The translations under genes and the position numbers were made by a program. Shown piece by piece: positions 517-38,028 of a DNA stretch of 64,000 nt. Origin of the DNA: Planctomycetota bacterium (GTDB taxonomy: Bacteria; Planctomycetota; UBA1135); NCBI GenBank assembly GCA_002705055.1, contig PAHY01000017.1, positions 1 through 64,000 on the forward strand, read 5' to 3'. Every line of letters starts with the position of its first letter. Positions within the stretch are counted from its first letter, which is position 1. The notes beneath the pieces are model-generated. The model had not been told where the DNA came from, did not search any database, and saw nothing but the letters and a program-made list of their open reading frames with translations.

Positions 517-517
517 C

Positions 518-2236
518 TCAGAATCGCCGTTGCAGGTAGAAGCCAAAGGAAGGTGCGTCCTGGTCGTCGCCGAAGCGGTAGCCCAGGTCGACGCTCCACG
601 ACCAGCCGCTCTCGGTCCAGCCGTCCAGAGCAAGCCGCAGGTCATGCTGCAGCGCGTCGTCGCTGCCGCTGTCGCGGGCCGCGTAGTTGCCGCTGTCCCA
701 GGTGATGCGCCAGCGCCCGAGGTCCGACTCGCCGCTCTGATCCAGCCGAATGCCGGTCAACTCGACGAAGCTGCCGGTGCGGCGGTAGACCGTCGCGCTG
801 GAGCGAGCGCCCGGTCCCCCGATCCACTCCGTCGCGTCGATCCGCAGCTCGCCTCCGGAGCCGTCCCGGTCTTCGGATTGCCAATGATCCAGACGAGCGC
901 TCAGGCGCAGGTCGGGGCGCAGCCGGATCCACGGCCGCAGATCAAAGCGGGTCGTCTCGCCCTCGAAGAGGTCGGTCTCGCGGAACTCTCCGGCCTGCTG
1001 CCGCAGCAGGCTGGGATAACGCCACTGGCGCAGGCCTGCCGACCAGCCGCTGTCCTCCTGGCGATGACTGAGTCGCACATCAGCCAGGGTCAGTTCGCTT
1101 CCCGCGTCCTTGCCGAAGTCGGCGTCGTCGTACTGATCAACCCAGGCGGTCGCCCGCACATCGAGGCCGCGCAGCATCGGACGCTCGAGGCGCAGCACCA
1201 TCAGCTCGCGATCCTCCTCGCCGTCATGCCAGGTCTTCTGCACCCCCAACCCGCCGCGCCAGCCACCCAGCTGCAGGGGATCGTAGTCGTAGTGAGCCGC
1301 GATCTGGAAATCTGACCCCGTCGAAAGCTCGGCATCGGTCTCCGGCATCCAGCCCACGCTGGCGCCGACGCGATGATGATCGGCCAAACGCCAGCTGACT
1401 TCGGCCCCGTCGATCAGACCGAAGCTGGGCACGCCGCGCTGCAGAAAGCGCCCCGCCTCCCAGGAGAAAGGATGGAAACGATCGCCGCCGTGCGCGTAGG
1501 ACAAGCGCTCGAGGCGGGCGTAGAAATCTGACTCGCTGGGCGCGCCCGCGGATGCGTGGGCCCGGTGGTCCAGATCCATGGCGAAGCGCAGACTCCCGCC
1601 GAAGCCGAAGGGGTTGCTGCCGCGCAGATCGACGCCGGAACGGAAGACGGTGCTCGTCGTGTCGCTGAACTCCTGTTCGCGAATCACACGCCCCAGCGCG
1701 TAGAAGCGCCCGCTCCAGATCGGCTCGCGTTCGTCCGGCCGCTGCGGCTCCGCAGCCAGCAGCGGTCGTTCCGGGTCCCAGTCCTGCTGCGGGTTGTTCC
1801 AGATCGGCGGCTCGCTGGGTACCGGATCCGTCTCGTCGCGTCCGCCGGCCTGGCCGCTGCGCAGGCGCTCCTCCGGAATCAGCACCTCGCAAGCGGTGCC
1901 AATGGCGACCTCCTCGGCACGGCTCTGCAGCAGAGCAACGGTCGCGCTGCGGTCACTCACGGCCTCGACCCTACCTTCGATCGGCCCACGGCCCAACGGC
2001 CGGAAGATGACGCGGTCGCCGGGCTCGACCCGGTCCAGCGCGCCGAGGTCGACCACCAGTCGATCGCCGCTGCGGTCGATGACGCGGCCTTCCAATTCCT
2101 GCTGCCCGACCGACCGCGCGACCCAGGCTCGAGGCGCGCTGGCGAGCGAACTGCCAGCGAGCACCTCGGGGCGCGCCGCCGCGAGCAGCAGGGTGAGGAT
2201 CACCGCCCGCCCCCTGCGGCGTGACAGTCGCCACAT
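518..2236 (-). CDS. Outer-membrane beta-barrel of electron conduit (copy 2)
   Basis: A 572-residue protein with an N-terminal signal sequence (hydrophobic run around residues 11-27). A small soluble domain around residues 48-120 (GDRLVVDLG, VEPGDRVIF) resembles the beta-rich fold seen in FlgT-like C-terminal domains. The rest alternates aromatic and polar residues in typical transmembrane-strand fashion and ends in Phe (LQRRF), the usual C-terminal signature for BAM-inserted barrels. It is a clear paralogue of 9388-11046 (shared GRFLQ.G.P..GL.DG and TWHDG). It overlaps the 26-heme gene by 37 bases and is followed immediately by the lipoprotein cytochrome. By analogy with MtrB/PioB-type porin-cytochrome modules it would sheath a heme chain through the outer membrane. 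No sequence-level MtrB match is claimed. Confidence 0.8.
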   Translation of the reverse strand: MWRLSRRRGRAVILTLLLAAARPEVLAGSSLASAPRAWVARSVGQQELEGRVIDRSGDRLVVDLGALDRVEPGDRVIFRPLGRGPIEGRVEAVSDRSATVALLQSRAEEVAIGTACEVLIPEERLRSGQAGGRDETDPVPSEPPIWNNPQQDWDPERPLLAAEPQRPDEREPIWSGRFYALGRVIREQEFSDTTSTVFRSGVDLRGSNPFGFGGSLRFAMDLDHRAHASAGAPSESDFYARLERLSYAHGGDRFHPFSWEAGRFLQRGVPSFGLIDGAEVSWRLADHHRVGASVGWMPETDAELSTGSDFQIAAHYDYDPLQLGGWRGGLGVQKTWHDGEEDRELMVLRLERPMLRGLDVRATAWVDQYDDADFGKDAGSELTLADVRLSHRQEDSGWSAGLRQWRYPSLLRQQAGEFRETDLFEGETTRFDLRPWIRLRPDLRLSARLDHWQSEDRDGSGGELRIDATEWIGGPGARSSATVYRRTGSFVELTGIRLDQSGESDLGRWRITWDSGNYAARDSGSDDALQHDLRLALDGWTESGWSWSVDLGYRFGDDQDAPSFGFYLQRRF

Positions 2237-4521
2237 TCGATTCCGAGCGGTTTGTAGCGCACCGCGCTGCGACCATCGCGCGCGGTCTCGGTGCGATGGC
2301 AGGCGCTGCAGTCCAGCTTGGCGTGCGTGTCATCCAGCGCGAAGCGCGTCTGCGCGTCGTGATCGAAACGCGGGATCGCGAAGCTGGTCGCCTCACTGCT
2401 GTGACAGCTCGCGCAGTTCGTGCTGCCGCCGCGCGCGAACTGACCGAGGTGCACATCGGCGTGGCAGTCCGCACAGTCGCGACCCGCCGCGCGCTGGCTG
2501 CGCCGCCCGGTCGCGCTGGGCGGATGCAGGCTGGGGTGGCAGGCTGTGCAAGCCGTCCGGGCGTGTGCCCCCTCCAGCGCGAAACCCGTCCACTTGCCGT
2601 GCTCAAAGCTCGGGCCGGCCAGCCGGAAGCTGCGCTCGTCGTGACAGCGCGCGCAGCCGCTCCGACCCTCGACTTGCTGCGGCAGACCGGGGTCCTCGAA
2701 AGCCCCGGCGTGCGGATCGGCGTGACAGCTCGCGCACTGCGCCAGATCGCCGTCGAACTGCTCGTGGACCTTGCCGAGGCGGGTGCTCTCGCCCTGACCA
2801 TGACAGAGCACGCACTCGGTCTGGGCGTGGGCTCCGTCGAGCGCAAACGCGGTCCAGAGGCCGTGATCAAAGCGCTGCACATCAACTGCGTGGAAGGCAT
2901 CCTGCTCGTGGCAGCGGGCGCAACCGAGACGTCCGCCGACGGTCGTCGGCAGGCCGGGCGCGTCAAAGCGCCCGCCGTGCGCATCCTCGTGGCAGGGCGC
3001 GCAGGACGCGGGATTGCCGGGATGCAAATCGGCGACGCGACCGAAGCGTCTTCCCCGCTCATCCGGCTGCGCGGCCCGCGTGTGGCAGGCCTCGCAATCC
3101 AAGGGATCGTGCGCTCCCTCAAGCGCGAAGCCGGTCCACGCGGCGTGGTCGAACTCGCTGTGGATAGACGCGAAGCGCGTGGTGTCATGACAGAGCGCGC
3201 AGCTGCCCGCAGGTGGCGGCGCGCCGTGCGCGGACCAGCCCTGCACGAGCGCGCCATCATGGGCGTCCGCGTGGCAGGCCTCGCATTGCAGCGGCGTGCC
3301 CGCGAACTGACGCACGCCGGCCTCTTCGGCGTGGCAGAGCGCGCAGTCGAGCGACTCATGACTCCCGGTCAGCGCGAAGGCCGTCCGCGCGTGGGCATCC
3401 AGGTCGAAGCCATGCGGGTGAAACTGGTCCTCGGCGTGGCAGCTGAGACAGCCGCGCTCCTGATAGGGAGGACGATCGAACTGGCCGGCGTGCGGATCAT
3501 CGTGACAGCTCGCGCACTGCGCCGCGGCGCGCCCCGGGAAGCGCTCAGCGAAGCTCGTGTCGCTGCCCTCGGGGTGACACGCGGCGCAGGCCAGCTGCGC
3601 GTGCGGCGCCTCGAGAGAGAATCCGCTCGCCGCGTGCTGCGCGGGGCTGAGCTCCACGGCCGGGTCGCGGAAGGCGGCGTGCTGCTCGCTATGACAAACC
3701 GCGCACTGGCCGCCTTCCGGCAAGCCAGATGCGGGCAGCGGCAAGGAAGCCAGGAAGCTCTCGCGGTGCGGCGACTCGTGGCAGTCGGAACAGCTGCGCC
3801 AGGGGATCTCGGCCTGCGGGTCGCTCAGCGCAGCGACCGCGTGCGGCCCCTGGTCCTCGTGACAGGCCGCGCAGTCCAGACCGCTGTGCGAGGCGTGCAG
3901 CGGGAAGCGCGCGTCGTGCGGGAAGTGCGAGAGATCGTCGAAGGCATGCATCTGCCCATGGCACTCCTCGCAGGAGCGCAGCATCGCGCCTTCGTGCGGG
4001 TCGTCGTGGCAGGCCGTGCAATCCTGCACCTGCCCGAGGAAGCGCGACTCCCCTTCCGGAAGCACCGCGACCTCGGCCAGCGGATGGCAGTCCTTGCAAT
4101 CCAGCGCTTCGTGCCGACCGTGGAGATCGAAGGGAACTGAGCCATGCCCGAATCCCTGCGGGCCGGGATGGCCGGACAGCGTGAAGGCCCGCTCGGTCAA
4201 GAGCGCGCCTTCCTTGCCGAGGTGTTCCGGGTGACAGCTGCCGCAGGCATCGCGCTGCGCCTCGGGCAGGGAGCCGTGAATGCCGCGCGCCTGCTCCCGC
4301 TGCGCCGTCACCTGCTGATGGCAGTCCAGGCAGCGGCTCGCTAGCTCTTCAGGCCCGTTGCCGTGGCACAGCACGCAGCCGTCCTGGCCATGCAGCACTT
4401 CGACCTGGGCGTGCGTCGCCGCCAGTCGGCCCGGCCCGACATCTTCGAGGTCGAGCAGGACCAAGAGCAGCACCAGACCTGCCGAGCAGATCGCGATCAG
4501 GGCGCGCATGCCGCGGCTCAT
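2200..4521 (-). CDS. 26-heme c-type cytochrome (copy 2)
   Basis: A 773-residue protein in which I count 26 CxxCH heme-binding motifs spread over the whole length after a hydrophobic N-terminus (residues 7-24). A possible signal-peptidase site follows THA before residue 39; otherwise the helix may stay as an anchor. Many modules share the pattern F(D/E)H..WTGFAL.GAH followed by CxxCH, where the extra His residues are plausible distal heme ligands. The gene overlaps the flavoprotein gene by 4 bases and the barrel gene by 37 bases, so translational coupling is likely. Inferred role: periplasmic wire linking the inner-membrane flavocytochrome to the porin. The paralogue at 11043-13466 has the same heme count and similar heme order. 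Confidence 0.9.
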   Translation of the reverse strand: MSRGMRALIAICSAGLVLLLVLLDLEDVGPGRLAATHAQVEVLHGQDGCVLCHGNGPEELASRCLDCHQQVTAQREQARGIHGSLPEAQRDACGSCHPEHLGKEGALLTERAFTLSGHPGPQGFGHGSVPFDLHGRHEALDCKDCHPLAEVAVLPEGESRFLGQVQDCTACHDDPHEGAMLRSCEECHGQMHAFDDLSHFPHDARFPLHASHSGLDCAACHEDQGPHAVAALSDPQAEIPWRSCSDCHESPHRESFLASLPLPASGLPEGGQCAVCHSEQHAAFRDPAVELSPAQHAASGFSLEAPHAQLACAACHPEGSDTSFAERFPGRAAAQCASCHDDPHAGQFDRPPYQERGCLSCHAEDQFHPHGFDLDAHARTAFALTGSHESLDCALCHAEEAGVRQFAGTPLQCEACHADAHDGALVQGWSAHGAPPPAGSCALCHDTTRFASIHSEFDHAAWTGFALEGAHDPLDCEACHTRAAQPDERGRRFGRVADLHPGNPASCAPCHEDAHGGRFDAPGLPTTVGGRLGCARCHEQDAFHAVDVQRFDHGLWTAFALDGAHAQTECVLCHGQGESTRLGKVHEQFDGDLAQCASCHADPHAGAFEDPGLPQQVEGRSGCARCHDERSFRLAGPSFEHGKWTGFALEGAHARTACTACHPSLHPPSATGRRSQRAAGRDCADCHADVHLGQFARGGSTNCASCHSSEATSFAIPRFDHDAQTRFALDDTHAKLDCSACHRTETARDGRSAVRYKPLGIECGDCHAAGGGR

Positions 4522-6734
4522 CCGAGACCTCCCAGGTCGGCGTAGCGCATCGCGGTGATGATGTGCGCGATCACCAGCAGGACCGCGAGCAGGGCGACCC
4601 AGCGATGCAGATAGCGCCAGGACGCGAGCACCCCGCGCAGATCCTCGAAGTGCGTCGCAGCGATCGCGTCGCGATGGGCGCGCGTCAGGATGGAGAGCAC
4701 CATCTCCAGCTCCTCACGATCGACGCCGAGTCGCTGTCCCTCCCCCTGCAGCGAGCGGCGACTGCGACGCAGCTCGCGCTGGGCCACGACCATGCCCCAG
4801 ATCGCGCCGAAGAAGCCCCGCCGCCAGCGCGCCCGCTGCACGAGCTGGCCTAGCTCCTTGCGCGCCAAATTCCCGAAGGCACGGTGGCCTTCCGGCCAGG
4901 AGCGCGTGCTGTCGCGCAGTCGCACCTCGGCCTCCTCGAGCGCCAGCTCCCGGCCGTTCGCCGCGCGCGGCACGAAGGAATAGAAGTAGCGCCCGATCGC
5001 CCCGGTCACCACCAGCACGAGCAGGCAGAGCAAGGCATGCCCCCCCACCTGGTCGCCGCGCTGAAAGCCAGCGTGCAGGAAGGCGAGCAGCAGGGCGAGA
5101 ATCCCCGTGCCGACGTGCAGCGTCATCCAACGCTGCAAGGAGCCCCAGCGCAGCGGAACGCGGATCGACCGCCGGGCGAGATAGGCGAGGTTGATCACCA
5201 TCGAGCCCGCAGCGGTCAGGCCGGCCAGCAATCCGAAGCCGCGCGCCGGACGCAGCTGATCATGCGCGACGTGGGCGACCCGGCCGACGGCGTCGGCGGT
5301 GTAGTAGTCGCGGTAGAGCCACCAGGCGGCGGCGGCCGCGAGCCCGGCCAGGCAGGCCACGCGGAGCGCGGGCAGGAGGCCGGTGCCGCGCTCGCGGAGC
5401 GGCTCCTCTTCCGGCAGCAGCGCCGGATCAAAAGACACGCCGGCCTCCTTCAGCATCGCAAACGGAGGAATCCCGCCCGCGAGGATGAAGACCTCGTCGT
5501 TGGGGACCGCGAGGGTCTCGGCATCCTGCCCGCCGCGCACCAGCACCACCTGGTCCCGCTCGATCGCGAGCACCTCGGTGTTGAACTCCACCTTGACGCG
5601 GCCCTGCTGCTGCGCCTCCAGGATGTTCATCTCATTGCGCGCCTTAAGGCGGAAGAACCCCTCCTTGCGATAGGACAGCGTGACCACATTCCCTGGCTGG
5701 GCCGCGAGGCCGAGCGCTGCCTCGATCGCGCTGTCGCCGCCGCCGACGACGAGCAGGCGACGCCCCTGGAAAGCCTGCGCATCGATCAGCGAATAGCTGA
5801 CCTTGGAAAGATCCTCACCCGGAACCCCGAGCTTGCGGGGAGTGCCACGTCGCCCCAGCGCCAGGCAGACATGCCGGGTTCGAATCGGTCCGCGCGCCGT
5901 GCGGATCTCGAAGCCGCCGCCGGGCTGCGCGACCACGGCCTCGAGCCGAGCTCCCTCCTGGATGGGCAGCTCGTGTTCCTCACTGAGCCGTGTCCACAGC
6001 TCGACGAGTTCTTCCTTCTGATAGCTGCTGCGATCCAGTCGCCCTGCAAGCGGAAGCTCCATCGGTTGGGTCATCACCAGCTTGCGCCGCGGATACTGCG
6101 CCACGGTCCCGCCGAGTCGCTCTTGTTCCAGGGTGCAGAAACGCAGGCCCAGCCGACGCGCTTCCAATGAACAAGCCAGCCCCGCTGGCCCCGCGCCGAC
6201 TACCACCAGATCGAGCTCATCGGTGGACGGCTCGGCCTCCGCCACCCTTCGTCCGACCTCGGCGGCCACGCGGCGCCCCTGCTCGACGGCGTTGCGGACC
6301 AGCGCGAAGCCGGTGACCTCGCCGGCCAAGAACAGCCCTGGACTGCCGATGGCTTCGAGGTGCGGGCTGAGCGCCGGGAGGTCATCCCGCTGCTTGCGGT
6401 CCCCCAAGGTCAGCGCGATCGCGCCGACCGGGCACTCTTCGGCGCAGCGCCCATGCCCGACGCAGCGGGAGCCGTGCACGACCATGGCTTGGCCGTGGAC
6501 CACTTCGAGCACCCCGTGTTCGGGGCAGGCGCGCACGCAGGTGCCGCAGCCGATGCAGCGACTCATGTCCACCCACGGGTGCTGCAGCCGCGCCTGATGA
6601 CTGCCCCGGGCGCGGGCTTCGCGCCGGGCGTCCAGTGTCGCCCTCAGGCGACGTGCCTCGATCGCTCGCCATTCGACGGCGAGGGTGACGAGGACCAGGA
6701 CCGCGAGCGCGGCGAAGAAAAGGGCGACTTCCAA
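4518..6734 (-). CDS. Membrane FAD/NAD(P) oxidoreductase with ferredoxin and cytochrome-b segments (copy 2)
   Basis: 738 residues. In order: an N-terminal membrane helix (3-20); a 2x[4Fe-4S]-type ferredoxin domain with Cys60/63/66/70 and a second motif Cys91/His94/Cys97/Cys101, where His replaces the usual second Cys; a thioredoxin-reductase-like flavoprotein with the FAD GxGxxG at 180-185 and an NAD(P) site GGGDSA at 331-336; then about five C-terminal helices. Two of these carry His pairs 14 residues apart (His540/His554, His710/His724), the spacing expected for two transmembrane b-hemes. Predicted to move electrons between cytoplasmic NAD(P)H or ferredoxin, or quinol, and the periplasmic cytochrome. 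The start is TTG: no ATG or GTG is available in frame before the upstream stop, and the length then equals that of the paralogue at 13463. First gene of its operon. Confidence 0.85.
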   Translation of the reverse strand: MEVALFFAALAVLVLVTLAVEWRAIEARRLRATLDARREARARGSHQARLQHPWVDMSRCIGCGTCVRACPEHGVLEVVHGQAMVVHGSRCVGHGRCAEECPVGAIALTLGDRKQRDDLPALSPHLEAIGSPGLFLAGEVTGFALVRNAVEQGRRVAAEVGRRVAEAEPSTDELDLVVVGAGPAGLACSLEARRLGLRFCTLEQERLGGTVAQYPRRKLVMTQPMELPLAGRLDRSSYQKEELVELWTRLSEEHELPIQEGARLEAVVAQPGGGFEIRTARGPIRTRHVCLALGRRGTPRKLGVPGEDLSKVSYSLIDAQAFQGRRLLVVGGGDSAIEAALGLAAQPGNVVTLSYRKEGFFRLKARNEMNILEAQQQGRVKVEFNTEVLAIERDQVVLVRGGQDAETLAVPNDEVFILAGGIPPFAMLKEAGVSFDPALLPEEEPLRERGTGLLPALRVACLAGLAAAAAWWLYRDYYTADAVGRVAHVAHDQLRPARGFGLLAGLTAAGSMVINLAYLARRSIRVPLRWGSLQRWMTLHVGTGILALLLAFLHAGFQRGDQVGGHALLCLLVLVVTGAIGRYFYSFVPRAANGRELALEEAEVRLRDSTRSWPEGHRAFGNLARKELGQLVQRARWRRGFFGAIWGMVVAQRELRRSRRSLQGEGQRLGVDREELEMVLSILTRAHRDAIAATHFEDLRGVLASWRYLHRWVALLAVLLVIAHIITAMRYADLGGLG

Positions 6735-6744
6735 GCTGTGACGG

Positions 6745-6772
6745 GTGACAGTCGCCGGGGGACAACTGTCAC
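6745..6772. promoter_or_regulatory. Inverted repeat upstream of conduit operon 2
   Basis: GTGACAGT (6745-6752) and ACTGTCAC (6765-6772) form a perfect 8-bp inverted repeat with a 12-base spacer, 11 bases upstream of the TTG start of the flavoprotein gene. A further partial copy (CTGTGACGGGTGACA) overlaps the left arm. The symmetry suits a dimeric regulator binding at the operon promoter or 5' end; a transcript hairpin is the alternative. Confidence 0.5.
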
Positions 6773-6859
6773 GGTATCGTCATAAGAGCGAGGAGTCGAA
6801 AGGATTTCCCTCAGCGCGGTCGGCCGATTTCGGCGTTGCTTCGTTTTGAAACAAAGAAA

Positions 6860-6889
6860 GGGGCCTTTCCCCCCTGTAGGAAAGGCCCC
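6860..6889 (-). terminator. Rho-independent terminator after fasciclin gene
   Basis: An 11-bp GC-rich stem, GGGGCCTTTCC paired with GGAAAGGCCCC around an 8-base loop, is followed on the minus strand by a T-rich run (TTTCTTTGTTT). It lies 40 bases past the fasciclin stop codon and separates that gene from the second conduit operon. Confidence 0.85.
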
Positions 6890-6929
6890 CGTTGGAAGGC
6901 GGACGAGGTCCGCCGACCAGAAAAGGTGA

Positions 6930-7829
6930 TCAGCGCGGCAGCAGGACCGAGTCGATGACGTGGATCACGCCGTTCGAGGTCTCGATGTCGCTGAGAACCA
7001 CCTTCGAGTCGTTGACCTTCAGCTGGCCGTTCTTGATCGCGATGCGCACCTTGCCACCCTGGACGGTCGCGGCCGCTTCAGCGGCCACTGCATCCTTCGC
7101 GTAGATGCGGCCCGGGACGACGTGGTAGGTCAGAATCGCGGTGAGCTTGGCCTTGTTCTCCGGCTTGACCAGGCTCTCAACGGTGCCTTCCGGCAGCTTG
7201 GCGAAGGCCTCATCGGTCGGCGCGAAGACGGTGAACGGACCTTCGCCCTTCAGCGTTTCGACCAGTCCGGCAGCGCCCAATGCGGCAGCCAGAGTCTTGA
7301 ACGAGCCGTTGTTGACGGCGGTCGTGACGATGTCCTCGGTGGCCGGCAGGATGACGCGGTCGATGACGTGGATCACGCCGTTCGAGCAGGCGATGTCGGT
7401 CTTGAGCACCTGAGCACCACCCACGCTGACGCCTTCGCCGACTTCGACGGCGAGACGCTGGCCGGCGAGGCTGCTCGCCCCGGTGATGTCGACGACGGCT
7501 GCGGCGCGGACTTCACCCGGCACGACGTGGTGCAGCAGAATGGTCTGCAGCAGGTCCTTGTTCTCCGGCTGGAGCAGAGCCTGCAGGGTCTCCTGCGGCA
7601 GCGCGGCGAAGGCCTCATCGGTCGGCGCGAACACGGTGTAGGGGCCGTCGCCCTGGAGGGCGTCCACCAGATCAGCAGCTGTCAGAGCCGCCGCGAGGGT
7701 GTTGAAAGACCCGGCCGAGACTGCCGTCTCGACAATGTTCTTCTCCGGAGCGACCGGAGTTTCGTCGGCGTTGACCGCGATCAGCGCCGCGGGACCGAGC
7801 AGGAAAGGAATGGTGAGGAGCGAGTTCAT
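6930..7829 (-). CDS. Secreted protein with two fasciclin (FAS1) domains
   Basis: 299 residues: a short signal peptide (about residues 1-20) followed by two consecutive FAS1 domains (about 31-165 and 166-299). Each contains the diagnostic [12 protein letters not shown] or [12 protein letters not shown] stretch, a late HHVVPG or YHVVPG motif and a closing [11 protein letters not shown]1 domains mediate adhesion and matrix interactions in secreted bacterial proteins. The gene has its own terminator (6860-6889) and stands between the two electron-conduit operons, 62 bases after the 19-heme gene. A structural role at the cell surface near the cytochromes is possible but only inferred from position. 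Confidence 0.93.
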
Positions 7830-7891
7830 GGCTTCTGTTTCGCCTCTCCTGTCGGCCCGGATGCAACTTGTTCAAGTTTTTTTCAGAACAA

Positions 7892-9388
7892 TCACGGCCG
7901 ACGCCCGTCCGGGTGGCAGCTGTAGCAGGCCGCGGTCTCGTAGGTCCAGCCCGGCACCCCCTGGTGGACCTGCTGCATCGGAATGAACTCGTGGGCGTGG
8001 CAATCCGTGCAGGTGAAGACCGTGAAGTTCGGCTGCGCCTGGTGGCAGTCGTTGCAGGCCAGCCCGCGGTGCCGCCCGGAATCAATCGGGAAGTCGTGGT
8101 CAAACTCACCGTCCCCCCAGTCCTGCGTGGTGTGGCAGAGCTCGCAGGTCGTCGGGAAGTTCAAGGCCGCGTGCGGCGGGTCGCCTGCGCCGAGGTAGTC
8201 CTGGAAGTGGCAGTCGACGCAGCCGTCGACTGTGCCCCCGTGATCGAACTGCGCACCGCGCCACTGGCTCGTCGAGCTATGGCACAGCTCACACTGCGGC
8301 GGGTACCCCTCGAGCTGGTGATTCGGGTCGGTCGTGCCCAGGTAGTTCTGCAGGTGACACTGCACGCAGTTGTCCACGATCCCGGCGTGGTCGAACTGCC
8401 CCGAGCGCCAGTCTGCAGTGCTGTGGCAGTCTTCGCAGCTCTGCGGATAACCCTCGAGCTGGTGGTTCGGGTCGGTCGTCGCGAGGTAGTCATCGATGTG
8501 GCAGTCGACGCAGGCCTGGGTGATCCAGCCATGATCGAAGCGCGCACCGGCGAAGGTCTGGACGCCGTGGCAGCGATCGCAGTTCTGCGGGTAGCCAAAG
8601 GCGAGGTGATCCGGGTCGCGTACGCCCTGGTAATCCTGCAGATGGCAATCGACGCACTCGCCGGGCACCGCGGCAAAAGCCCCCCCGGAGTGACAGGCCT
8701 CGCAGGCCGCGGCGCCGTGGGCGCCGGTCAGCGGAAAGCCATCGTGCCGGAAGCCGTCCTCGGTCCAGACCGTGGGAACGTGACATTCCTGGCAGTTGTC
8801 GACCCATCCCTGCTCGAAGTGGTTGGGCTCGAGCGCCATCGCGAGATCGGCCTGATGGCAGCTCGCGCAATCCACCGGCAGCGGCTCGATGACGCCGGAG
8901 CCGATTCCGGTATGGCAGCGGTCGCAACTGGCCGCCGCGTGCGCCCCGTACAGCGGGAAGCGCGTCCGCGCGTGCTCGGCCAGCTGCCCCTCCGGCTGCC
9001 AGTCATGCTCGTCATGGCAGTGCGCGCAATCCGGACCGTTGCGGCCCTCATGCACATCGCCGTGACATCCGGCGCAACCCTGCGAGGCAAAGGTGGCGAC
9101 CGGGCCGCGGTCGTTATGACAGCGCAGGCACTGCGCCTGCGCATGCTGCCCGTTCAGCGCAAAGCCGGTCTCCGCTTCATGGTCAAAGTCGATCTCCTCC
9201 TTCAACGCGGTCCAGCTGGCGGTCGTGTGACACAACGAACAGTCTCCGGGGAAGGTCTTGTGCGGGACCACCGGGCCGTAGCCGCTCCACCATTCCTGCA
9301 CGGCCTCAAACTCGGCTTGGACACAGGCGATCACCGTGAAGGTGGCCGCCAGCAGACAGGCAAACAGCAGGCGAGCGAGCGTGGACAT
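7892..9388 (-). CDS. 19-heme cytochrome c lipoprotein with tandem diheme modules
   Basis: 498 residues with 19 CxxCH motifs. The N-terminus has a hydrophobic stretch and lipobox V-I-A-Cys22, so a lipoprotein is predicted. Residues 245-437 hold four tandem copies of a roughly 48-residue diheme module beginning at Cys245, Cys293, Cys341 and Cys390. Each runs CVxCH, a DYL..TDPNHQLEGYP-like middle, CE.CH, then an FDH before the next copy. The start codon shares one base with the stop of the barrel gene (TGATG), so the two are translationally coupled. Last gene of conduit operon 1 and the complete paralogue of 1-516. Predicted to sit at the outer face as terminal electron donor or acceptor; surface exposure is inferred. 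Confidence 0.88.
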   Translation of the reverse strand: MSTLARLLFACLLAATFTVIACVQAEFEAVQEWWSGYGPVVPHKTFPGDCSLCHTTASWTALKEEIDFDHEAETGFALNGQHAQAQCLRCHNDRGPVATFASQGCAGCHGDVHEGRNGPDCAHCHDEHDWQPEGQLAEHARTRFPLYGAHAAASCDRCHTGIGSGVIEPLPVDCASCHQADLAMALEPNHFEQGWVDNCQECHVPTVWTEDGFRHDGFPLTGAHGAAACEACHSGGAFAAVPGECVDCHLQDYQGVRDPDHLAFGYPQNCDRCHGVQTFAGARFDHGWITQACVDCHIDDYLATTDPNHQLEGYPQSCEDCHSTADWRSGQFDHAGIVDNCVQCHLQNYLGTTDPNHQLEGYPPQCELCHSSTSQWRGAQFDHGGTVDGCVDCHFQDYLGAGDPPHAALNFPTTCELCHTTQDWGDGEFDHDFPIDSGRHRGLACNDCHQAQPNFTVFTCTDCHAHEFIPMQQVHQGVPGWTYETAACYSCHPDGRRP

Positions 9389-11046
9389 CAGAAGCTCCGG
9401 GATGCAAAGAAACTCAGCGTGGGGTTGTTCTGCTCCTCGCCGTAGCGCCAGCCGAGATCAGCGCTCAGGCTCCAGCCCGCCTCCAGCCGGTTCGACCAGC
9501 GAGCTCGCAGTTCATGCTCCAGGGCGTCGTGCCCGTGGTCGTTCTCCTCGAAGCGGACGGTCTCGAAGTGCAGTTGCCAATGTCCGGCCCACGGAGGCAG
9601 CGACTGATCCAAACGGACGCCGGTCGCGTCGGTGAAGGCTCCCTCGTGCCGAAACGCGCTCAAGCTGGTGGTCAGCCCCGGCGAGAGCAGATCGACCCAG
9701 CTCGAACCCAGCTCGAGGCCCGAACCGTCCCGCTCGCGCGATTGCCAGTGATCGACCCGGACACGGATCCGGGTGCGACTGCGCACCCGCCACCAGAGCG
9801 AGACGTCGGCGCGGGTGGTGTGGTCCTCGAACAGGTCCAGCAGAATGAAGTTGCCGGCCTGAAAGCGCAGCAACTGCGGATAGCGCCAATGCCGCACCCC
9901 GACGCTGCCGCCGCTGCGATCGAGGCTCCAGTGCAGCATCGAGTACGCCAGAGTCGGCTCGAGCCCGGTGTCCTTGCCGAGGTCATCGGCGTCGTAGTAG
10001 TCGATCCAGGCGGCGTTGCGCCACGCCGTTGTTCCGCGCGACCAGCTGCTCTGGAGCAACAGCAGGGAGCGGTCCGGGGTGCCGTCGTGCCAGGTCTGCT
10101 GGACCGCCGCGCCCCAGTGCCAGCGCGTATCCGCCAGGGCGGTGCCGCCCGCCGACCCGCGGTAGAACGCGGCGAGCTGAAAGTCATTGCCCGTCGTCAG
10201 CTCCTGGGTCGCCTCCGGCAGCCAACCGGCGCTGACGCCGACCCGCGCACCATCCTCCCGGCCCCACTGCAGCTCCATGCCATCGAGCAGCCCCAGCTCG
10301 GGGAAGCCGTGCTGGAGAAAGCGGCCAACCTCCAGCCGACGCGTTTCGAAGCGCTGCCCGCCGCGTCGGTAGGACGCGCGCTCCAGCCGGACCGCGGGCT
10401 CGCTCTCGGCCGGATCCCCCTCGGCGTCGTAGGCTCGATAGTCGAACTCGGCGCGAAGCTGCAGCGCCCCGCCATAGCCGAAGGGATTGTCGCCCTCCAG
10501 CTCGAGACCCGCGCGAGCGAACAGGCTGTGGCTGTCGCGCAGCGCGCGCTCGGCCGAGAGATAGCTGCTCATCCAGGTCCGCCCGCGCCAGAGGGATGCA
10601 CGCTCTTCGGGTCGGGTTCCGAGCTGCTCCAGCAAAGGACGTGATGAATCGGTCGGCTCCACCGGGTCGGCCCAGCGCGGCTCCGTTTCCGGCAGCGGCC
10701 CCGAGCGATCCCGAAAGTCCGATTCGCTCGCTGCGGCGCGCCGTCGCTCCGCGGGCAGCTCCAGCTCGCCGCCCGTGCCGATGTCCATCCCCGCTTCGCC
10801 CTCGGGCCCGGGGAGCATCAGCACCCACGCGGTTCGCTCCGCCACGCTTTGCACCCGACCAAACCGCTCGCTCTGCCCCAGCGGCTGCAGACGCAGTCGA
10901 TCGCCCGGCTCGACTCCGGCCTCGCGGCCGCGGTCAATCTGCACCAGCTGCCCCTGCACCGAGAGCACGCGCACTTCCACCCGTTCCCAGGCAGGCTCCT
11001 GATCGACGCACAGCACCGGCGTGAGGAGCAGGCCGAGCCAGCTCAT
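9388..11046 (-). CDS. Outer-membrane beta-barrel of electron conduit (copy 1)
   Basis: 552 residues with a short signal sequence, a small N-terminal beta domain (around residues 22-95, containing GVEPGDRLRL) and a long strand-rich barrel ending in Phe (FASRSF). It matches 518-2236 in architecture and in scattered blocks (NPFGYGGALQ versus NPFGFGGSLR; VGRFLQHGFPELGLLDG). It overlaps the 26-heme gene by 4 bases (ATGA) and the 19-heme gene by one base. Inferred to be the outer-membrane sheath for heme-to-heme transfer, in the manner of porin-cytochrome complexes. Confidence 0.8.
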   Translation of the reverse strand: MSWLGLLLTPVLCVDQEPAWERVEVRVLSVQGQLVQIDRGREAGVEPGDRLRLQPLGQSERFGRVQSVAERTAWVLMLPGPEGEAGMDIGTGGELELPAERRRAAASESDFRDRSGPLPETEPRWADPVEPTDSSRPLLEQLGTRPEERASLWRGRTWMSSYLSAERALRDSHSLFARAGLELEGDNPFGYGGALQLRAEFDYRAYDAEGDPAESEPAVRLERASYRRGGQRFETRRLEVGRFLQHGFPELGLLDGMELQWGREDGARVGVSAGWLPEATQELTTGNDFQLAAFYRGSAGGTALADTRWHWGAAVQQTWHDGTPDRSLLLLQSSWSRGTTAWRNAAWIDYYDADDLGKDTGLEPTLAYSMLHWSLDRSGGSVGVRHWRYPQLLRFQAGNFILLDLFEDHTTRADVSLWWRVRSRTRIRVRVDHWQSRERDGSGLELGSSWVDLLSPGLTTSLSAFRHEGAFTDATGVRLDQSLPPWAGHWQLHFETVRFEENDHGHDALEHELRARWSNRLEAGWSLSADLGWRYGEEQNNPTLSFFASRSF

Positions 11047-13466
11047 CGCCCATCACCCTGCAAGGGTCCGGGAAGGACGCTGTGGCAGTCCGCGCAGGCG
11101 GTGCCCAGCGGCCGGTAGCGGACCGCCTGGCCCCCGCCCTGCAGCGGCGTCGCCGGATGGCAGGAAGCGCAGTCGACCCGGGCGTGGGTCGCGTCAAGCG
11201 GGTAGCGCGTCTGGCTGTGATCAAAGAGCGGCAGCTCCCAGCGCGCGGCCTCGGCATCGTGGCAGCGGAGGCAGTCCGTGCGCCCCTCGCGCTGAAACTG
11301 ACCCTGGTGGGGATCGGCGTGACAGGACTGACAGTCACGCCCTGCCGCGCGCGCGAAGCTGCGCCCTTGGGCGTCCTTGCGCGGGAGCTCGGTATGGCAG
11401 GCGGAACAGGACGCCTCGGCGTGCGCGCCGCTCAGCGCAAAGCGGGTCCATTGCGCGTGGTCAAAGCCGCCCTCGAGCGCGGCGGCCTGGAAGCTGAGCG
11501 TTTCATGGCAGCGCGCGCACCCGACGCGCCCTTGGATGCGGGTGCGCAGTCCGGGCCGCTGGAACAGGCCATCATGCGGATCGCTATGGCAGGTCGCGCA
11601 GCGCGCCGCATCGCCGGGATAGTGATCCTCCACCCGACCGAAGCGGCGCAGCTCGGTTGCTTCGCCGTGGCAGCTCGCACATTCCGCCTGCGCATGTGCG
11701 CCGTCGAGGGCGTAGCCCGTCCAGGCGCCGTGATCGAAAGCCTGATGCAGAGTGCCGAAGAGTTCGACGGTGTGGCAGCGATCGCAACCGACGCGACCCG
11801 CAACGGAGGAGGGCAGATGATCGGCGTGGAAGCTCCCGCCGTGGACGTCCTCATGGCAGCCCTCGCAGTGCGCGGGGTCGCCCGGGTGCAGCACGGCGAC
11901 ACGGCCGAAGCGTCGGCCGAGCTCGTCCGCGAGCGAGGACCGGGCGTGGCAGTCCTCGCAGGACTCGGTCTGGTGCCCCCCCTCCAGCGCGAAGCCGGTC
12001 CAACGGAAGTGGTCAAAGGGGTCGATCGTCTGCGCAAACTGGCCCGCGTCGTGACAACGCGCGCAGTTGCCCCCGGGGAAGGGCCCCAGCTCCGCTTCGC
12101 GCGCTGCGAATGCGCCGGCGTGCGCGTCGGCGTGGCAGGCCTCACAGGCTCGCTCGGTGCCGCGGAAGACGCGACATGGATCGGCATGCTGCGCCAGCGC
12201 GGCAGGGTCTCCGCGCCCGCCGAGCAGCTGGTCGTGACAGGCTTCGCAATCCACCTGCTGGTGACTCTGCTCGAGCGGAAAGCGCGTCGCCGCGTGGGCG
12301 TCCAGGTCGAAGCCATGCGGCGCGAAGCGGTCGCGTGCATGGCAGCTCAGGCAGCCGCGGTCGGCGTAAAGGGGGTGGTCAAACTGCCCCTGATGCATGT
12401 CCTGATGGCAGGCGGCGCAGGAGTCCGCCGCCCGGCCGGGATAGGCCTCGGCGAAGCCCTGGCCGGCATCGCGCGGATGACAGGCGGCGCAGTCCAGGCC
12501 GTCGTGCGGCGCATCCAGCGCGAAGCCCGACGCCCCGTGCCAGCTCGACTCAAAGTGCGGCTCCTCGCCAGTCCAGCCCCGGTGCTCTTCGGAATGGCAC
12601 AGCGCGCAGCCATCCCGCCCGGGCGCGGGCGCCGGCAGGCCGGGCAGCCCGGCCAGGAAGGCGTCCCGGTGCGGAGAGTCATGGCAGCTGGCGCAGCTGC
12701 GCCAGGCCGCGCGGATCGGGTCCTGGGCGTAGTCCGCGTCGGACAGGGCTTCGACCGAGCGATCGCTGCCGGTCTCGTGGCAGTCTGCGCAGGACAGTCC
12801 GCCGTGCGAGAAGTGCAGCGGAAAGCGCGGGTCGTGCGGGAAGGCGCTGAGATCGTCAAAGTCGTGCTCCTGGCCGTGGCATTCCTCGCAGCCGCGCTTC
12901 ATCGCGCCTTCATGCGGGTCCTCGTGACAGTCGATGCAGCGCTGCGTGCGATCCAAGTAGCGCGACTCGCCTTCGGGGAGCACCGCCAGGTCGGCGTTCA
13001 GATGGCAGTCGACGCAGGCCAGAGCGTCGTGGCGACCATCGAGATGGAAGTCGACGGTGCTGTGGTCGAAGCCATCGGGGCCGACGTGCCCGGCGAGGCG
13101 AAAACTCCGCTCGCCGGTCAGCGGGACATCGTGGCCGAGGTGCTCGACGTGGCAGCTGCCGCAGAGCTGCTGCTGCGCCGGTTCGAGCTGGCCGTGCAGC
13201 CCCGCCGCCTGGTCGAGCTGTGCCTGAATCGGCGCGTGGCAGTCGAGACAGGCCTGCGCCAGCTCGGGGGTTCCGGCTGCGCCGAACAGGTGCGCCGGAC
13301 CGGTGCCATGGCAGACCGCGCAGGCACGGCCGCCGTCGAGCTCGTCGACCTGCGCATGCACGGAGGTGATCGGCCCCGGACCGGTGTCCTGCGCGTCCCA
13401 GCTGATCGCCATCACGACCACCGCGGCGGAGAGCAAGGTCAGGGTCCAACGTGCCCAGGCGTTCAT
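11043..13466 (-). CDS. 26-heme c-type cytochrome (copy 1)
   Basis: 807 residues; 26 CxxCH motifs counted. A hydrophobic N-terminus (residues 8-22) is followed by a VHA-QV site equivalent to THA-QV in the paralogue, so both probably share the same export route. Repeated F(D/E)H..WT.(F/Y)AL.GAH segments precede many heme sites. It also carries isolated Cys residues between heme motifs 13 and 14 that the other copy lacks. Gene order and 4-base overlaps with the flavoprotein and barrel genes match operon 2 closely. Predicted periplasmic conductor between the inner-membrane flavocytochrome and the porin. Confidence 0.9.
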   Translation of the reverse strand: MNAWARWTLTLLSAAVVVMAISWDAQDTGPGPITSVHAQVDELDGGRACAVCHGTGPAHLFGAAGTPELAQACLDCHAPIQAQLDQAAGLHGQLEPAQQQLCGSCHVEHLGHDVPLTGERSFRLAGHVGPDGFDHSTVDFHLDGRHDALACVDCHLNADLAVLPEGESRYLDRTQRCIDCHEDPHEGAMKRGCEECHGQEHDFDDLSAFPHDPRFPLHFSHGGLSCADCHETGSDRSVEALSDADYAQDPIRAAWRSCASCHDSPHRDAFLAGLPGLPAPAPGRDGCALCHSEEHRGWTGEEPHFESSWHGASGFALDAPHDGLDCAACHPRDAGQGFAEAYPGRAADSCAACHQDMHQGQFDHPLYADRGCLSCHARDRFAPHGFDLDAHAATRFPLEQSHQQVDCEACHDQLLGGRGDPAALAQHADPCRVFRGTERACEACHADAHAGAFAAREAELGPFPGGNCARCHDAGQFAQTIDPFDHFRWTGFALEGGHQTESCEDCHARSSLADELGRRFGRVAVLHPGDPAHCEGCHEDVHGGSFHADHLPSSVAGRVGCDRCHTVELFGTLHQAFDHGAWTGYALDGAHAQAECASCHGEATELRRFGRVEDHYPGDAARCATCHSDPHDGLFQRPGLRTRIQGRVGCARCHETLSFQAAALEGGFDHAQWTRFALSGAHAEASCSACHTELPRKDAQGRSFARAAGRDCQSCHADPHQGQFQREGRTDCLRCHDAEAARWELPLFDHSQTRYPLDATHARVDCASCHPATPLQGGGQAVRYRPLGTACADCHSVLPGPLQGDGR

Positions 13467-15679
13467 CCGCGGCCTCCCAGGTCGGCGTAGCGCCAGCCCG
13501 CCCAGACGTGAATCAGCACCAGGCCGACCACCAGCAGGCCGACCCAGCGATGGAAGTAGCGCCAGCCCGCCAGCAGACTGCGCAGGTCTCCGTAGTGCGC
13601 CGCGGCGAGCGCATCGCGATGGGCGCGCCGTGCGACCTCCAGCACTTCATCGAGCTCCTCGACGTGCAGGCCGGCGACGACGCCCCGGGTACGCAGGCGA
13701 CGCAAGCTCTGCCGCAGCGCGCGCTGCGAGCGGAACAGTCCCCACACCGAACCCAGGATGCCGCCGTGCCAGCGGGCACGATCCAGCAGCTGCGCGATCT
13801 CGGCGCGCGCTTGCTCGCCGAAGTCGGCGTGGACCTCGGACCAGGCCCGCATCGATTCCTGCAGGCGCAGGCGCGCCTCTTCAAAGGCCAGCTCCCGCCC
13901 ATTCGCAGCCCGCGGCACAAAGGAATACAGGTAGCGACCGATCGCACCCGTGACGACGAGAAAGACCAGACCCCAGAACGCGCGCCCCCCCGGGGTATCG
14001 CGCGGCACGAAGGCGGAGTGGAAGCTGGCGAAGACCAGCGCGAGCAGGCCGGTCGCCACGTGCACGTTCATCCACGCACGCAGCGAACCCAGGCGCAGCG
14101 GGAAGCGCGCGTGGCGGCGCAGCAGGTAGGCAAGATTCGCCAGCATCATGGCCGCCGCAGCCAGGCCGGCCGCCAGTCCCCCGCCATGCGCGGAGTGCAA
14201 CCAGAGATGCTCGGTGCGTTCGCGGCGCGTCAGAAGGTCGGCCCCGTAGTACTCCTGCCAGCCCCACCAGGCGCCGAGTAAGCCGAGGGCCGCAGCGCCG
14301 GCGATGCCGAGCGCCACGAGCAGGCCTGCGCCGCGTTCGGCGGGGGCCGCCAGCTCCGGATGATCCTCCGGGTCGAAAGAAACCCCGGCCGCGGCCAGCA
14401 TCCCAAACGGCGGCTCGCCGCCAAGCAGTAGGAAGACCTCGTCATTCGACAGCTCGCGCGGCTCGCCGTCCGCTCCGATCAGCCGCACGGCGTCTTCGCG
14501 AATCTCGGTCAGCTCGGTCTCGAACAGGACTCGCACGCTCCCGGTGCGCATCGCTTCCAGAATGCGCAGTTCATTGCGTGCCCGCAGTCGGAAGAAGCCT
14601 GCACGCCGATAGGAGAGATGGACTTCATTGCCCGGCTGCGCGGCGAGACCCAGCGCGGCTTCGATCGCGCTGTCGCCCCCGCCCACCACCAGGATGCGTC
14701 GGTCCTGATAGCCCTGCGCGTCGATCAGCGAGTAGGAGACCTTGAGCAGCTCTTCGCCGGGCACACCGAGGGTGCGCGGGATGCCGCGCCGTCCGATGGC
14801 GAGCAGCACATGCCGGGCGCGCACCGGGCCCGCGCTGGTCTCGAGCAGATTCACTCCATCCTCCTGCGCACGCACCGACTCCACCTGCACGTACTCGCGG
14901 ATCGGGAGCTCGTGTTCGCGAGCCAAGCGCTCCCAGAGCTCCATCAGCTCCTCCTTGCGGTAGCCGCGCGCCTCCAGCTCGCCACCGATCGGCAGCTCCA
15001 GCGCTCGGGTCATGAGCAGCTTGCGACGGGGATAGCGCGCCACGGTGCCGCCGAGCGCGTCGCGTTCGAGGGTGACAAAATCGAGCCCGCGTCGACGTGC
15101 CTCGAGCGAGGCCGCCAGCCCGGCCGGCCCGGCGCCGATGATGACCAGATCGTGCGCGTCGGCCGGGCCGCGGGGATCGCGCACTTCCAGTTGGCGCGCG
15201 ACCGCGGCCACGGCGCGACGGCCGTGATCAACCGCCGTCCGAATCAGCGCATAGCCGGTGACCTCGCCGGCGAGATAAAGGCCGGGGCGCCCGACCGCCG
15301 CCAACTCGGAGTCGAGCGCCGGAAGATCATGTCGCTGCGAGCGATCCCCCAAAGTGAGCGAGATCGCGCCGACCGGGCATTCTTCCGCGCAGCGTCCGTG
15401 GCCCACGCAGCGGGAGCCCTGCACGATCGTCGCCTGGCCGTGGACCACCGCCAGAACACCCCCTTCGGGGCAGGCGCGCACGCAGGAGCCGCAACCGATG
15501 CAGCGACTTCGGTCCACCCAGGGGTGCTCCAGTCGCGCCTCGAGCGCGCCGCGTTCGCGCGCCTCCTGCCGCTTCCCCAGGACGGCACGCAGCCGCCGCC
15601 GCTCGTTGCGCCATACCACGCAACCAGCCACCGCTGCCGCCGCACCGAGCGCAGCAAGAATGAGGGGAATCGTCGACAT
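13463..15679 (-). CDS. Membrane FAD/NAD(P) oxidoreductase with ferredoxin and cytochrome-b segments (copy 1)
   Basis: Starting at the ATG at 15679 gives 738 residues, exactly the paralogue's length; an in-frame GTG nine bases upstream is the alternative. It has the same order of parts as 4518-6734: N-terminal helix, ferredoxin motif CIGCGSCVRACP, second motif CVGHGRCAEECP with His at the second ligand position, FAD site GAGPAG, NAD(P) site GGGDSA, then C-terminal helices. Two of these carry His pairs 14 residues apart (HVATG...SFH and FHRWV...LIH). The second-cluster His is therefore conserved in both copies. First gene of conduit operon 1. Electron direction (NAD(P)H to outside, or the reverse) cannot be decided from sequence. 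Confidence 0.87.
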   Translation of the reverse strand: MSTIPLILAALGAAAAVAGCVVWRNERRRLRAVLGKRQEARERGALEARLEHPWVDRSRCIGCGSCVRACPEGGVLAVVHGQATIVQGSRCVGHGRCAEECPVGAISLTLGDRSQRHDLPALDSELAAVGRPGLYLAGEVTGYALIRTAVDHGRRAVAAVARQLEVRDPRGPADAHDLVIIGAGPAGLAASLEARRRGLDFVTLERDALGGTVARYPRRKLLMTRALELPIGGELEARGYRKEELMELWERLAREHELPIREYVQVESVRAQEDGVNLLETSAGPVRARHVLLAIGRRGIPRTLGVPGEELLKVSYSLIDAQGYQDRRILVVGGGDSAIEAALGLAAQPGNEVHLSYRRAGFFRLRARNELRILEAMRTGSVRVLFETELTEIREDAVRLIGADGEPRELSNDEVFLLLGGEPPFGMLAAAGVSFDPEDHPELAAPAERGAGLLVALGIAGAAALGLLGAWWGWQEYYGADLLTRRERTEHLWLHSAHGGGLAAGLAAAAMMLANLAYLLRRHARFPLRLGSLRAWMNVHVATGLLALVFASFHSAFVPRDTPGGRAFWGLVFLVVTGAIGRYLYSFVPRAANGRELAFEEARLRLQESMRAWSEVHADFGEQARAEIAQLLDRARWHGGILGSVWGLFRSQRALRQSLRRLRTRGVVAGLHVEELDEVLEVARRAHRDALAAAHYGDLRSLLAGWRYFHRWVGLLVVGLVLIHVWAGWRYADLGGRG

Positions 15680-15682
15680 CGA

Positions 15683-15726
15683 GGGCACAGGGGAGCCCCG
15701 CCGTGTGCCCCCTCCTGCGCAGGAGG
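15683..15726. promoter_or_regulatory. Two adjacent hairpin elements before conduit operon 1
   Basis: GGGCACA (15683-15689) pairs with TGTGCCC (15704-15710) and encloses a GGGG/CCCC core. It abuts a perfect 16-bp palindrome CCTCCTGCGCAGGAGG at 15711-15726. Both lie in the gap between the UbiD-type gene and the flavoprotein start. They could terminate transcription from the upstream gene, although no T-run follows, or act as a leader structure or operator for the operon. Confidence 0.45.
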
Positions 15727-15747: not shown

Positions 15748-17214
15748 TTAGGAGTTTTTCTCGAAGCCGAACTCGGCCCAGCGCCGATCGATCTGAGCCT
15801 CCATGTCGTCCGACATGACGATCACCTCGGGCCAGTCGCGGGAGAAGCCCTCTTCGGGCCACTTGCGGGTCGCGTCGATGCCGACCTTGCTGCCGTAGCA
15901 GTGGGCGCGGCTGGCGTGGTCCAGCACCTCGATCGGCCCCATCGTGAACTCGAGGTCACGCTGCGGGTCGATGTTGTTGAGGACGCGCCAGGCCACCTCG
16001 CCGTCGTCGTGAATATCGCAGTCGTCGTCGACGACCACGATCACTTTGGTGAACATGGCCTGCCCCAGACCCCAGATCGCGTTCATGATCTTGCGCGCGT
16101 GCCCCGGATAGGACTTCTTGATCTTGAGGTACATCAGGTTGTGGGCGACGCCCTCGAAGGGCATGCGATAGTCCACCACCTCCGGGAACTGCTTCCGCAG
16201 CACCGGCAGCAGCAGGCGCTCGATGCCCTCGGTCATCCAGCAGTCTTCCTGCGGCGGCCGCCCCACCAGCGTGGTGTGGTAGATCGGATCCTTGCGCATC
16301 GTCACGCAATGGACGCGGAAGACCGGATAGTCATCGGCGAGGCTGTAGAAGCCGGTGTGATCGCCGAAGGGACCTTCGCGGCGCAGCTCGTTCGGGTCGA
16401 CGTAGCCCTCCAGCACGATCTCGGCGGTGGCAGGCACCTCGAGCGGCACCGTCTTGCACGGCACGAGCGGCACCGGCTTCTGGCGCAGGAAGCCCGCGAT
16501 CAACAGCTCGTCGATGTCGGGCGGGGCCGGCACCACGCTGGCGAAGCAGGTCGCCGGGTCGGCACCGATCACGACCGCCACCGGGATCTTCTCGCCGCGC
16601 GCGGCAGCCTTGCCGAGATGCCGCTTGGCATCCTTGTGCATATGCGTGTGGAAGCCGGTCTCGTTCTTGGAGAAGACCTGCAGCCGATAGGTGCCGAGGT
16701 TGCGCTTGCCCGATTCGGGATCCTGCGTCACGCACAGCGGGAAGGTGATGAACGGGCCGCCATCGTCCGGCCAGGTGGTGAGGACCGGAATCTTGTTGAG
16801 GTCGACGTCCTCGCCTTCCCAGACCACCTCCTGGCAAGGCGCGCTCGACACCTTCTTCGGGAACATCTTCCCGAGCTGCGCTAGCTTCGGCAGCATCTTC
16901 AGCTTGCCGAGCAGACCTTCAGGCGGCGCCTGATCGAGCAACTCGTCAAGCCGCTGCGCGTGGTCTTCGATCGACTCGGCGCCCAGCGACAGTCCCATGC
17001 GGCGCCGCGAGCCGAAGGCGTTGACGAAGACCGGCATCTCGCTGCCGATCACATTCTCGAACAGCAGCGCGCGATTGGGCGCTCCCTGTTCCTTGGAGAC
17101 TCGGTCGACGATCGCTGAGATCTCCAGCTTCGGATCGACCGGGGCGGAGATGCGCTGCAACTCGCCGGCAGCTTCCAGCACCTCGATCCACTCACGCAGG
17201 CTGTTGATGGCCAT
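15748..17214 (-). CDS. ubiD: UbiD-family prFMN-dependent decarboxylase
   Basis: 488 residues, the usual length of the UbiD family, which decarboxylates aromatic or unsaturated acids (for example polyprenyl-hydroxybenzoate in quinone synthesis) using prenylated FMN. The family's E-x-x-R-E-G-P-F-G-D-H-T-G segment (NELRREGPFGDHTG) that lines the active site is intact, as is the N-terminal LREWIEVLEAAGEL opening. A purine-rich AAAGGTGG lies about 4 bases before the ATG, one of the few convincing ribosome-binding sites in the window. Location just upstream of the conduit operon makes a quinone-pathway role attractive, but UbiD homologues have varied substrates and no prenyltransferase UbiX is seen here. 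Confidence 0.88.
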   Translation of the reverse strand: MAINSLREWIEVLEAAGELQRISAPVDPKLEISAIVDRVSKEQGAPNRALLFENVIGSEMPVFVNAFGSRRRMGLSLGAESIEDHAQRLDELLDQAPPEGLLGKLKMLPKLAQLGKMFPKKVSSAPCQEVVWEGEDVDLNKIPVLTTWPDDGGPFITFPLCVTQDPESGKRNLGTYRLQVFSKNETGFHTHMHKDAKRHLGKAAARGEKIPVAVVIGADPATCFASVVPAPPDIDELLIAGFLRQKPVPLVPCKTVPLEVPATAEIVLEGYVDPNELRREGPFGDHTGFYSLADDYPVFRVHCVTMRKDPIYHTTLVGRPPQEDCWMTEGIERLLLPVLRKQFPEVVDYRMPFEGVAHNLMYLKIKKSYPGHARKIMNAIWGLGQAMFTKVIVVVDDDCDIHDDGEVAWRVLNNIDPQRDLEFTMGPIEVLDHASRAHCYGSKVGIDATRKWPEEGFSRDWPEVIVMSDDMEAQIDRRWAEFGFEKNS

Positions 17215-37954: not shown

Positions 37955-38028
37955 CAGCAACCACCCAGTTTGCCCGAGATGAGCGTCCTGCGCAGCGGGA
38001 ATCGCAGGAGATCCGGTGAAGGCGGGCG

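Follow-up and report, generated by a model that had tools for sequence, protein, structure and literature searches.

The 64,000-nucleotide stretch of a Planctomycetota contig analyzed here (PAHY01000017.1, positions 1 to 64,000, referred to as the window) encodes a 19-heme lipoprotein composed of a fixed five-heme core, an array of triheme (T) and diheme (D) modules, and a five-heme end cap. Sequence comparison suggests that its relatives have gained and lost whole blocks of this kind, so that the putative heme wire seems to be sized by evolution one block at a time. The gene (7892 to 9388, minus strand, like all its parts listed below) codes for 498 amino acids with a lipobox-like VIAC at Cys22, and 19 CxxCH motifs were counted in the translation. 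Comparison with relatives gave the order T-D-D-D-cap downstream of the core. The signal peptide and core take up residues 1 to 173 (8870 to 9388; linkers 32-13-11-29-14), followed by the T module at residues 174 to 244 (8657 to 8869; linkers 20-25-11), the modules D1 (residues 245 to 292; 8513 to 8656), D2 (293 to 340; 8369 to 8512), and D3 (341 to 389, 49 amino acids; 8222 to 8368), and finally the cap at residues 390 to 498 (7895 to 8221; linkers 20-25-10-23), with CYSCHPDG near its end. The Pfam model PF14522 (Cytochrome_C7) matched the protein with 72.9 bits against a gathering cut-off of 24.8, while TIGR04257, which we take to be the model for the GSU1996 kind of cytochrome, gave no match to it at E ≤ 0.01 or 1e-3 and matched two of the eight members of our alignment A2 at E ≤ 1e-3. 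D2 and D3 were the closest pair of modules (33 of 48 amino acids, 69% DNA identity) and the other pairs had 21 to 24 of 48 residues in common, so the array does not look recently duplicated.

An initial annotation of the window had reported four tandem diheme modules at residues 245 to 437. The four near-regular repeats are real and map to 8078 to 8656 (minus strand). They begin at the CxxCH motifs of residues 245, 293, 341, and 390, with spacings of 48, 48, and 49 amino acids before the fourth, and every one contains two CxxCH motifs, a DPxH...(Y/F)P segment, and FDH. Outside CxxCH, their mean pairwise identity was 0.43, compared with 0.069 (sd 0.016, maximum 0.151) in 10,000 shuffles that held CxxCH in place, none of which attained the observed similarity. 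The module count had to be revised at both ends, since the fourth repeat already belongs to the cap and the triheme unit upstream (residues 174 to 244) had been missed. The fourth unit continues through a linker of 25 and FPIDSGRH...CNDCH into a third heme and opens the five-heme cap seen in relatives. We rejected it as an ordinary D module because its second linker of 25 is the T or cap value, while that of D is 18 to 19.

Homologs were found in 50 of 392 sampled Planctomycetota genomes (E ≤ 1e-30) and, with a cut-off of E ≤ 1e-60, in 90 of the 154 genomes of the order. One hundred regions chosen from the hits, together with L001, L011, and L042, gave 103 family ORFs that passed a filter for the family motif after the second heme; L094, L158, and L161 yielded no ORF. 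We parsed 101 of the 103 (L042 and L139 were without a start), and 80 had the standard layout, or 79, including the window protein, once L011 (a repeat of L077) was removed. The remaining 21 parsed ORFs were nine seven-heme short forms, five running off contig ends (L066, L076, L092, L120, and L121), and seven with an irregular stop. A simple rule, hemes = 10 + 3T + 2D, was obeyed by 79 of the 86 long forms that end in a genuine stop codon, over a range of 12 to 37 hemes. Five of the 86 were capless (L065, L070, L122, L150, and L156), each ending two hemes into a module like the short form, and two had an altered cap (L063 and L100); the cap is thus not indispensable. Core linkers were 32-13-11-29-14, with the 29 replaced by 31 in 4 of 79, and the others, each within a few residues, were 20-25-11 for T, 20-18 for D, and 20-25-10-23 for the cap.

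Eighteen architectures were distinguished in the 79 standard members, from DC (12 hemes) up to nine T modules and a cap (37 hemes), which strongly supports the earlier proposal that length evolves by module number. That this happens purely by expansion of a diheme unit, as had also been suggested, is not the case, with 164 T versus 82 D modules in total. At least one T was present in 77 of the 79 (the exceptions being DC and DDDC; the window protein combines a single T with three D), and T generally came before D where both were present, except in TTDTDDC. The span fitted 225.8 + 71.76T + 48.34D amino acids (R2 0.9992, 79 standard members), a fit that is partly circular because the parser admits only preset linker ranges. 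By module consensus, D resembles a T from which ca. 23 residues, among them one CxxCH and one His, are missing, and T was the nearest neighbor (by prefix) of 6 of the 82 D modules. The strict lipobox pattern was found in 84 of 100 members and failed in 16. One genome (G419, L099 1336 to 5891) carries three adjacent paralogues with 25, 18, and 12 hemes.

Differences by whole modules were seen among close relatives. Architectures differed within 9 of the 12 genera that had standard long forms from at least two genomes, and in two of the nine (g17 and g296) within-genome paralogues contribute to the differences. Two sister species of one genus, at a core distance of ca. 0.035, were one 144-bp module apart, with six D modules in G416 and five in G417. 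Counterparts in this pair were 88 to 97% identical in DNA for the other D modules, 94% for T, and 96% for the cap, and the extra module was closest to its own neighbors, at 78 to 80%. For 22 of 72 D modules (shuffle mean 2.2, maximum 12) and 38 of 87 inner T modules (shuffle mean 1.1, maximum 8), the nearest neighbor was another module of that protein, whereas 39 of 41 first T modules were nearest to the first T of a different protein. Thus, turnover is higher in the interior, and the first module behaves as an orthologous end that stays fixed. Comparing repeat number in homologs, as the initial annotation proposed, bore out its view of module number, both in the sister species and in the interior modules that are often nearest to a neighbor in the same protein. 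On the 79-row core tree the fewest architecture changes were 54, a count to be read on a poorly resolved tree (136 columns, with 37 of its 76 internal branches left open). We considered collapsed assembly repeats as a source of the module differences and found this unlikely, as the top DNA identity between modules within a protein was 87% (median 68%, 62 proteins). Differing architectures also occurred where a genome consisted of at most two contigs (TTTTTC in G387, TTC in G445, and TTTTC in G155).

In all D and T modules, the number of non-motif His equals or exceeds that of the hemes. Outside CxxCH, D modules had two His in 72 cases and three in 10 (at least two in 82/82), and T modules had three in 134, four in 29, and five in one (at least three in 164/164). 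Caps had five in 40, more in 35, and four in 4 (at least five in 75/79), and six non-motif core His were kept in all 75 standard-length cores, a count that left out the 4 of 79 cores that were two residues longer. The window protein has 6 + 3 + 6 + 5 = 20 conserved candidate ligand His for 19 hemes, sufficient for bis-His ligation, the predicted ligation, throughout the protein. This self-sufficient supply within each module, together with whole-module insertions and deletions between fixed ends, suggests that the lipoprotein would form a linear wire. AlphaFold2 scores were low, with a pLDDT of 32 for the mature lipoprotein (three-row alignment) and 42 for D1 to D3 (two rows).

The lipoprotein gene lies at the end of an operon on the minus strand that also contains a 4Fe-4S/FAD pyridine-nucleotide oxidoreductase (13463 to 15688), a 26-CxxCH cytochrome with an N-terminal hydrophobic segment (11043 to 13466), and a porin-like gene of 552 amino acids with no Pfam hit and a C-terminal Phe (9388 to 11046). 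The C-terminal membrane part of the oxidoreductase, which had a weak DUF4405 match below the cut-off, is presumably of cytochrome-b type. The porin-like, 26-heme cytochrome, and FAD/Fe-S genes recur at 518 to 6734 (minus strand), and the four-gene conduit is thus present twice within 1 to 15688, in one orientation, the first copy being cut by the contig start. Both 26-heme cytochromes (2200 to 4521 and 11043 to 13466) resemble ca. eight tandem triheme units. A Fasciclin-domain gene (6930 to 7829) sits between the two copies, and a UbiD-family decarboxylase gene (15748 to 17214) stands beside the operon, with an 85%-identity homolog upstream of the operon in L072 (G346). Farther along the window, two adjacent FG-GAP/ASPIC-UnbV proteins are encoded in overlapping reading frames (36071 to 39942).

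Where 7.4 kb or more of upstream sequence was available, the lipoprotein was preceded by the FAD/4Fe-4S, multiheme, and porin-like genes, in that arrangement, in all 56 loci of the order (48 long, 7 short, and 1 truncated). Outside the order, the barrel was found upstream in order in 2 of 11 loci, and the other nine had FAD and multiheme matches upstream with no barrel found there. A C-terminal Phe was present in 69 of 88 upstream heme-free ORFs and, along with the position, points to the barrel gene being a porin. In the first set, all 66 partner cytochrome ORFs had heme numbers of 17, 20, 23, 26, or 29, rising in steps of three. Partners of long forms from families f1 and f2 had 26 hemes in 31 of 35 cases and 29 in 4, and partners of short forms, where the ORF was found, had 23 in 8/8 and in 14/15, the last having 20. 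Heme numbers of partner and lipoprotein were uncorrelated (rho -0.05, 53 pairs).

The short paralogues had exactly seven hemes and neither array nor cap in 29 of 29 cases (nine from the first set and 20 of 20 fetched later), having been selected for a short match to the query, with the 20 drawn from genomes in which a long form had been hit as well. Their linkers were 32-13-11-29-14-20, the last being once 18 and once 21. Of the 20 later short-form loci, all showed the barrel, 19 the cytochrome, and 17 the FAD gene, with the misses near contig ends. Both forms occurred in 28 genomes (these 20 and eight of the first nine), although the long form was a partial hit in G394 and cut or irregular in G437. 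All 29 short forms fell on one side of a single branch (SH-aLRT 86; fewest changes 2) with just two long forms, so that short and long forms look like old paralogues. The window contains a further paralogue, whose N-terminal part with the five-heme core (1 to 516, minus strand) is cut by the contig start. Another contig of the same genome, C1, terminates in a fragment comprising T, D, D, and cap, with 12 CxxCH motifs, and although no sequence overlap joins the two pieces, they likely belong to one 17-heme protein, one D shorter than the window protein.

Beyond the phylum, a single genome scan returned one contig, which was from Planctomycetota, and one search of viral contigs for relatives found none. 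In plasmids, tblastn returned one record, pEMTOL02 of Emticicia oligotrophica DSM 17448 (L163, NC_018749.1 81148 to 94350). Its protein WP_015031199.1, annotated as just "cytochrome c3 family protein," has 40 CxxCH motifs, a core with linkers 31-11-11-29-14, ten T modules, and a cap, and two neighboring modules (T8 and T9) are 98% identical in DNA; no lipobox was apparent by eye. The gene adjoins FAD/Fe-S, cytochrome-b-like, 23-heme, and porin-like genes. This system differs from the window operon in belonging to a Bacteroidota plasmid, in having the cytochrome-b-like part as a separate gene, and in its porin-like gene, which is downstream of the 40-heme gene and does not end in Phe.

Taken together, the lipoprotein is probably the surface cytochrome of a porin-cytochrome-type conduit, with core, T/D array, and cap forming an extendable heme arm. 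Electrons would pass between a cytoplasmic donor or acceptor and the FAD/4Fe-4S/cytochrome-b-like membrane protein; the large multiheme cytochrome, mostly with 23 or 26 hemes, would span the periplasm and meet the porin-like barrel, where the fixed five-heme core of the lipid-anchored outer cytochrome would dock. The self-contained array would run on from the core, usually ended by the fixed five-heme cap. Since each module carries its own distal His, gain or loss of modules would lengthen or shorten the heme chain and leave the ends undisturbed. Tandem duplication and deletion would change the module number, and the simplest route, which we infer as the mechanism, is recombination between neighboring modules that resemble each other. 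Surface location, linear heme stacking through the array, the direction of electron flow in the conduit, and reach as the selected property are all presumptive parts of this scheme. More tentatively, these bacteria may have long maintained two conduits in parallel, the first with a fixed seven-heme surface cytochrome and a 23-heme partner and the second with an adjustable arm. Such an arm would change in two- or three-heme steps through interchangeable self-ligating modules between fixed docking and exit ends, its length being selected and setting the reach of electrons beyond the outer membrane.

A different function of the added modules, or none, has also to be weighed. Recombination may alter module number with no functional effect, and the frequent changes of this number and its lack of correlation with the partner's heme number fit such neutral drift. 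Nevertheless, CxxCH and the distal His are kept in D and T modules, and the short paralogue stays at seven hemes, an argument weaker than it appears given that these paralogues were picked as short hits; on balance we regard drift as somewhat unlikely. A little less probable, in our opinion, is that modules are added for electron storage and not for reach, as suggested for the Geobacter protein GSU1996, which has been described as able to work as a capacitor (PMC10138318). The wide variation in heme number, next to a fixed seven-heme conduit in the same genomes, would suit storage. Yet the operon position of the variable protein, beside the porin-like gene, is that of the seven-heme form, as befits a terminal conduit part, and the standard cap is retained by 79 of the 86 long forms ending in a genuine stop codon, which suggests a working end.

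We give the same low probability to an unexposed array that bridges the periplasm. GSU1996 and its relatives are periplasmic (PMC10138318), and the Emticicia version lacks an obvious lipobox, but for this task the operon already has the large partner cytochrome with its N-terminal hydrophobic segment, and the size of this partner varies much less than that of the lipoprotein. Polymerization of the lipoprotein into a nanowire like those of OmcS or OmcZ would agree with its dense heme, repetitive chain, and conduit-type operon, and a full supply of its own His is compatible with a filament, since in OmcZ all heme His are described as coming from the same subunit. However, a lipobox-like N terminus, a subunit size that is not constant, single chains that already reach 37 hemes, and the absence of OmcS, OmcE, or OmcZ matches among PDB chains make this reading very improbable. 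The conduit with an extendable arm is of interest in its own right, as the family offers a natural size series of 7 to 37 hemes (40 in Emticicia) in one cytochrome family with constant ends, in which electron transfer versus length and the effect of one extra module would be directly measurable. It also offers a simple growth rule for giant multiheme cytochromes, and a related system is carried by a numbered collection strain, Emticicia oligotrophica DSM 17448.

Porin-multiheme clusters of Verrucomicrobia and Planctomycetota have been proposed before to serve extracellular electron transfer, with eight-heme periplasmic cytochromes (He 2017, PMC5615132), as generic porin-cytochrome conduit (PCC) calls (Suarez 2023, PMC10732223), or as cytochrome groups, one with more than 20 motifs (ghost-rock MAGs 2026, PMC13264449). 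The portions of these three texts that were available describe no array of variable module number. The family was likewise not found among titles and the beginnings of abstracts, nor in the available parts of the MHCscan and Geobacter cytochrome papers. The likeness to filament-forming cytochromes put forward in the initial annotation proved weak. OmcS, OmcE, and OmcZ resemble the lipoprotein in providing long heme chains for extracellular conduction, here predicted, and are described as short polymerizing subunits of 6, 4, and 8 hemes, respectively; none of them matched it among PDB chains at E ≤ 1 (phmmer) or 1e-3 (profile).

A nearer precedent is GSU1996, a single-chain "nanowire" of c7 domains with 12 hemes in tandem triheme domains that are linearly arranged in its structure (PMC10138318). 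With GSU0592 and GSU2210 it makes up the periplasmic Geobacter "nanowires of hemes," with totals of 12, 12, and 27 hemes in one genome (PMC10138318). Diheme modules, a fixed core, and a cap, all present here, are not mentioned for this kind in the available part of that account (PMC10138318). Proteins of the GSU1996 type have one His-Met heme per domain (PMC10138318), whereas the non-motif His of D and T modules, no fewer than their hemes, argue against such ligation in the present family.

In PDB searches the lipoprotein gave only weak c3, HmcA, and MtrC matches, the sole MtrC chain being 9eov_A (E 0.0024, residues 228 to 349), and its 26-heme partner gave none at E ≤ 0.01. PF22113 matched both 26-heme partners and not the lipoprotein, and with this model and the PDB chains no full-length homology of the lipoprotein to the MtrC/OmcA family was found. 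The likeness to MtrCAB and other PCCs is in the clustering of a porin-like gene with a periplasmic-type and an outer multiheme cytochrome, a set present in all 56 loci of the order and in 2 of 11 outside it. Unlike those systems, the conduits described here combine an inner cytochrome of mostly 23 or 26 hemes, an FAD/Fe-S/cytochrome-b-like entry protein, and a terminal cytochrome of variable length.
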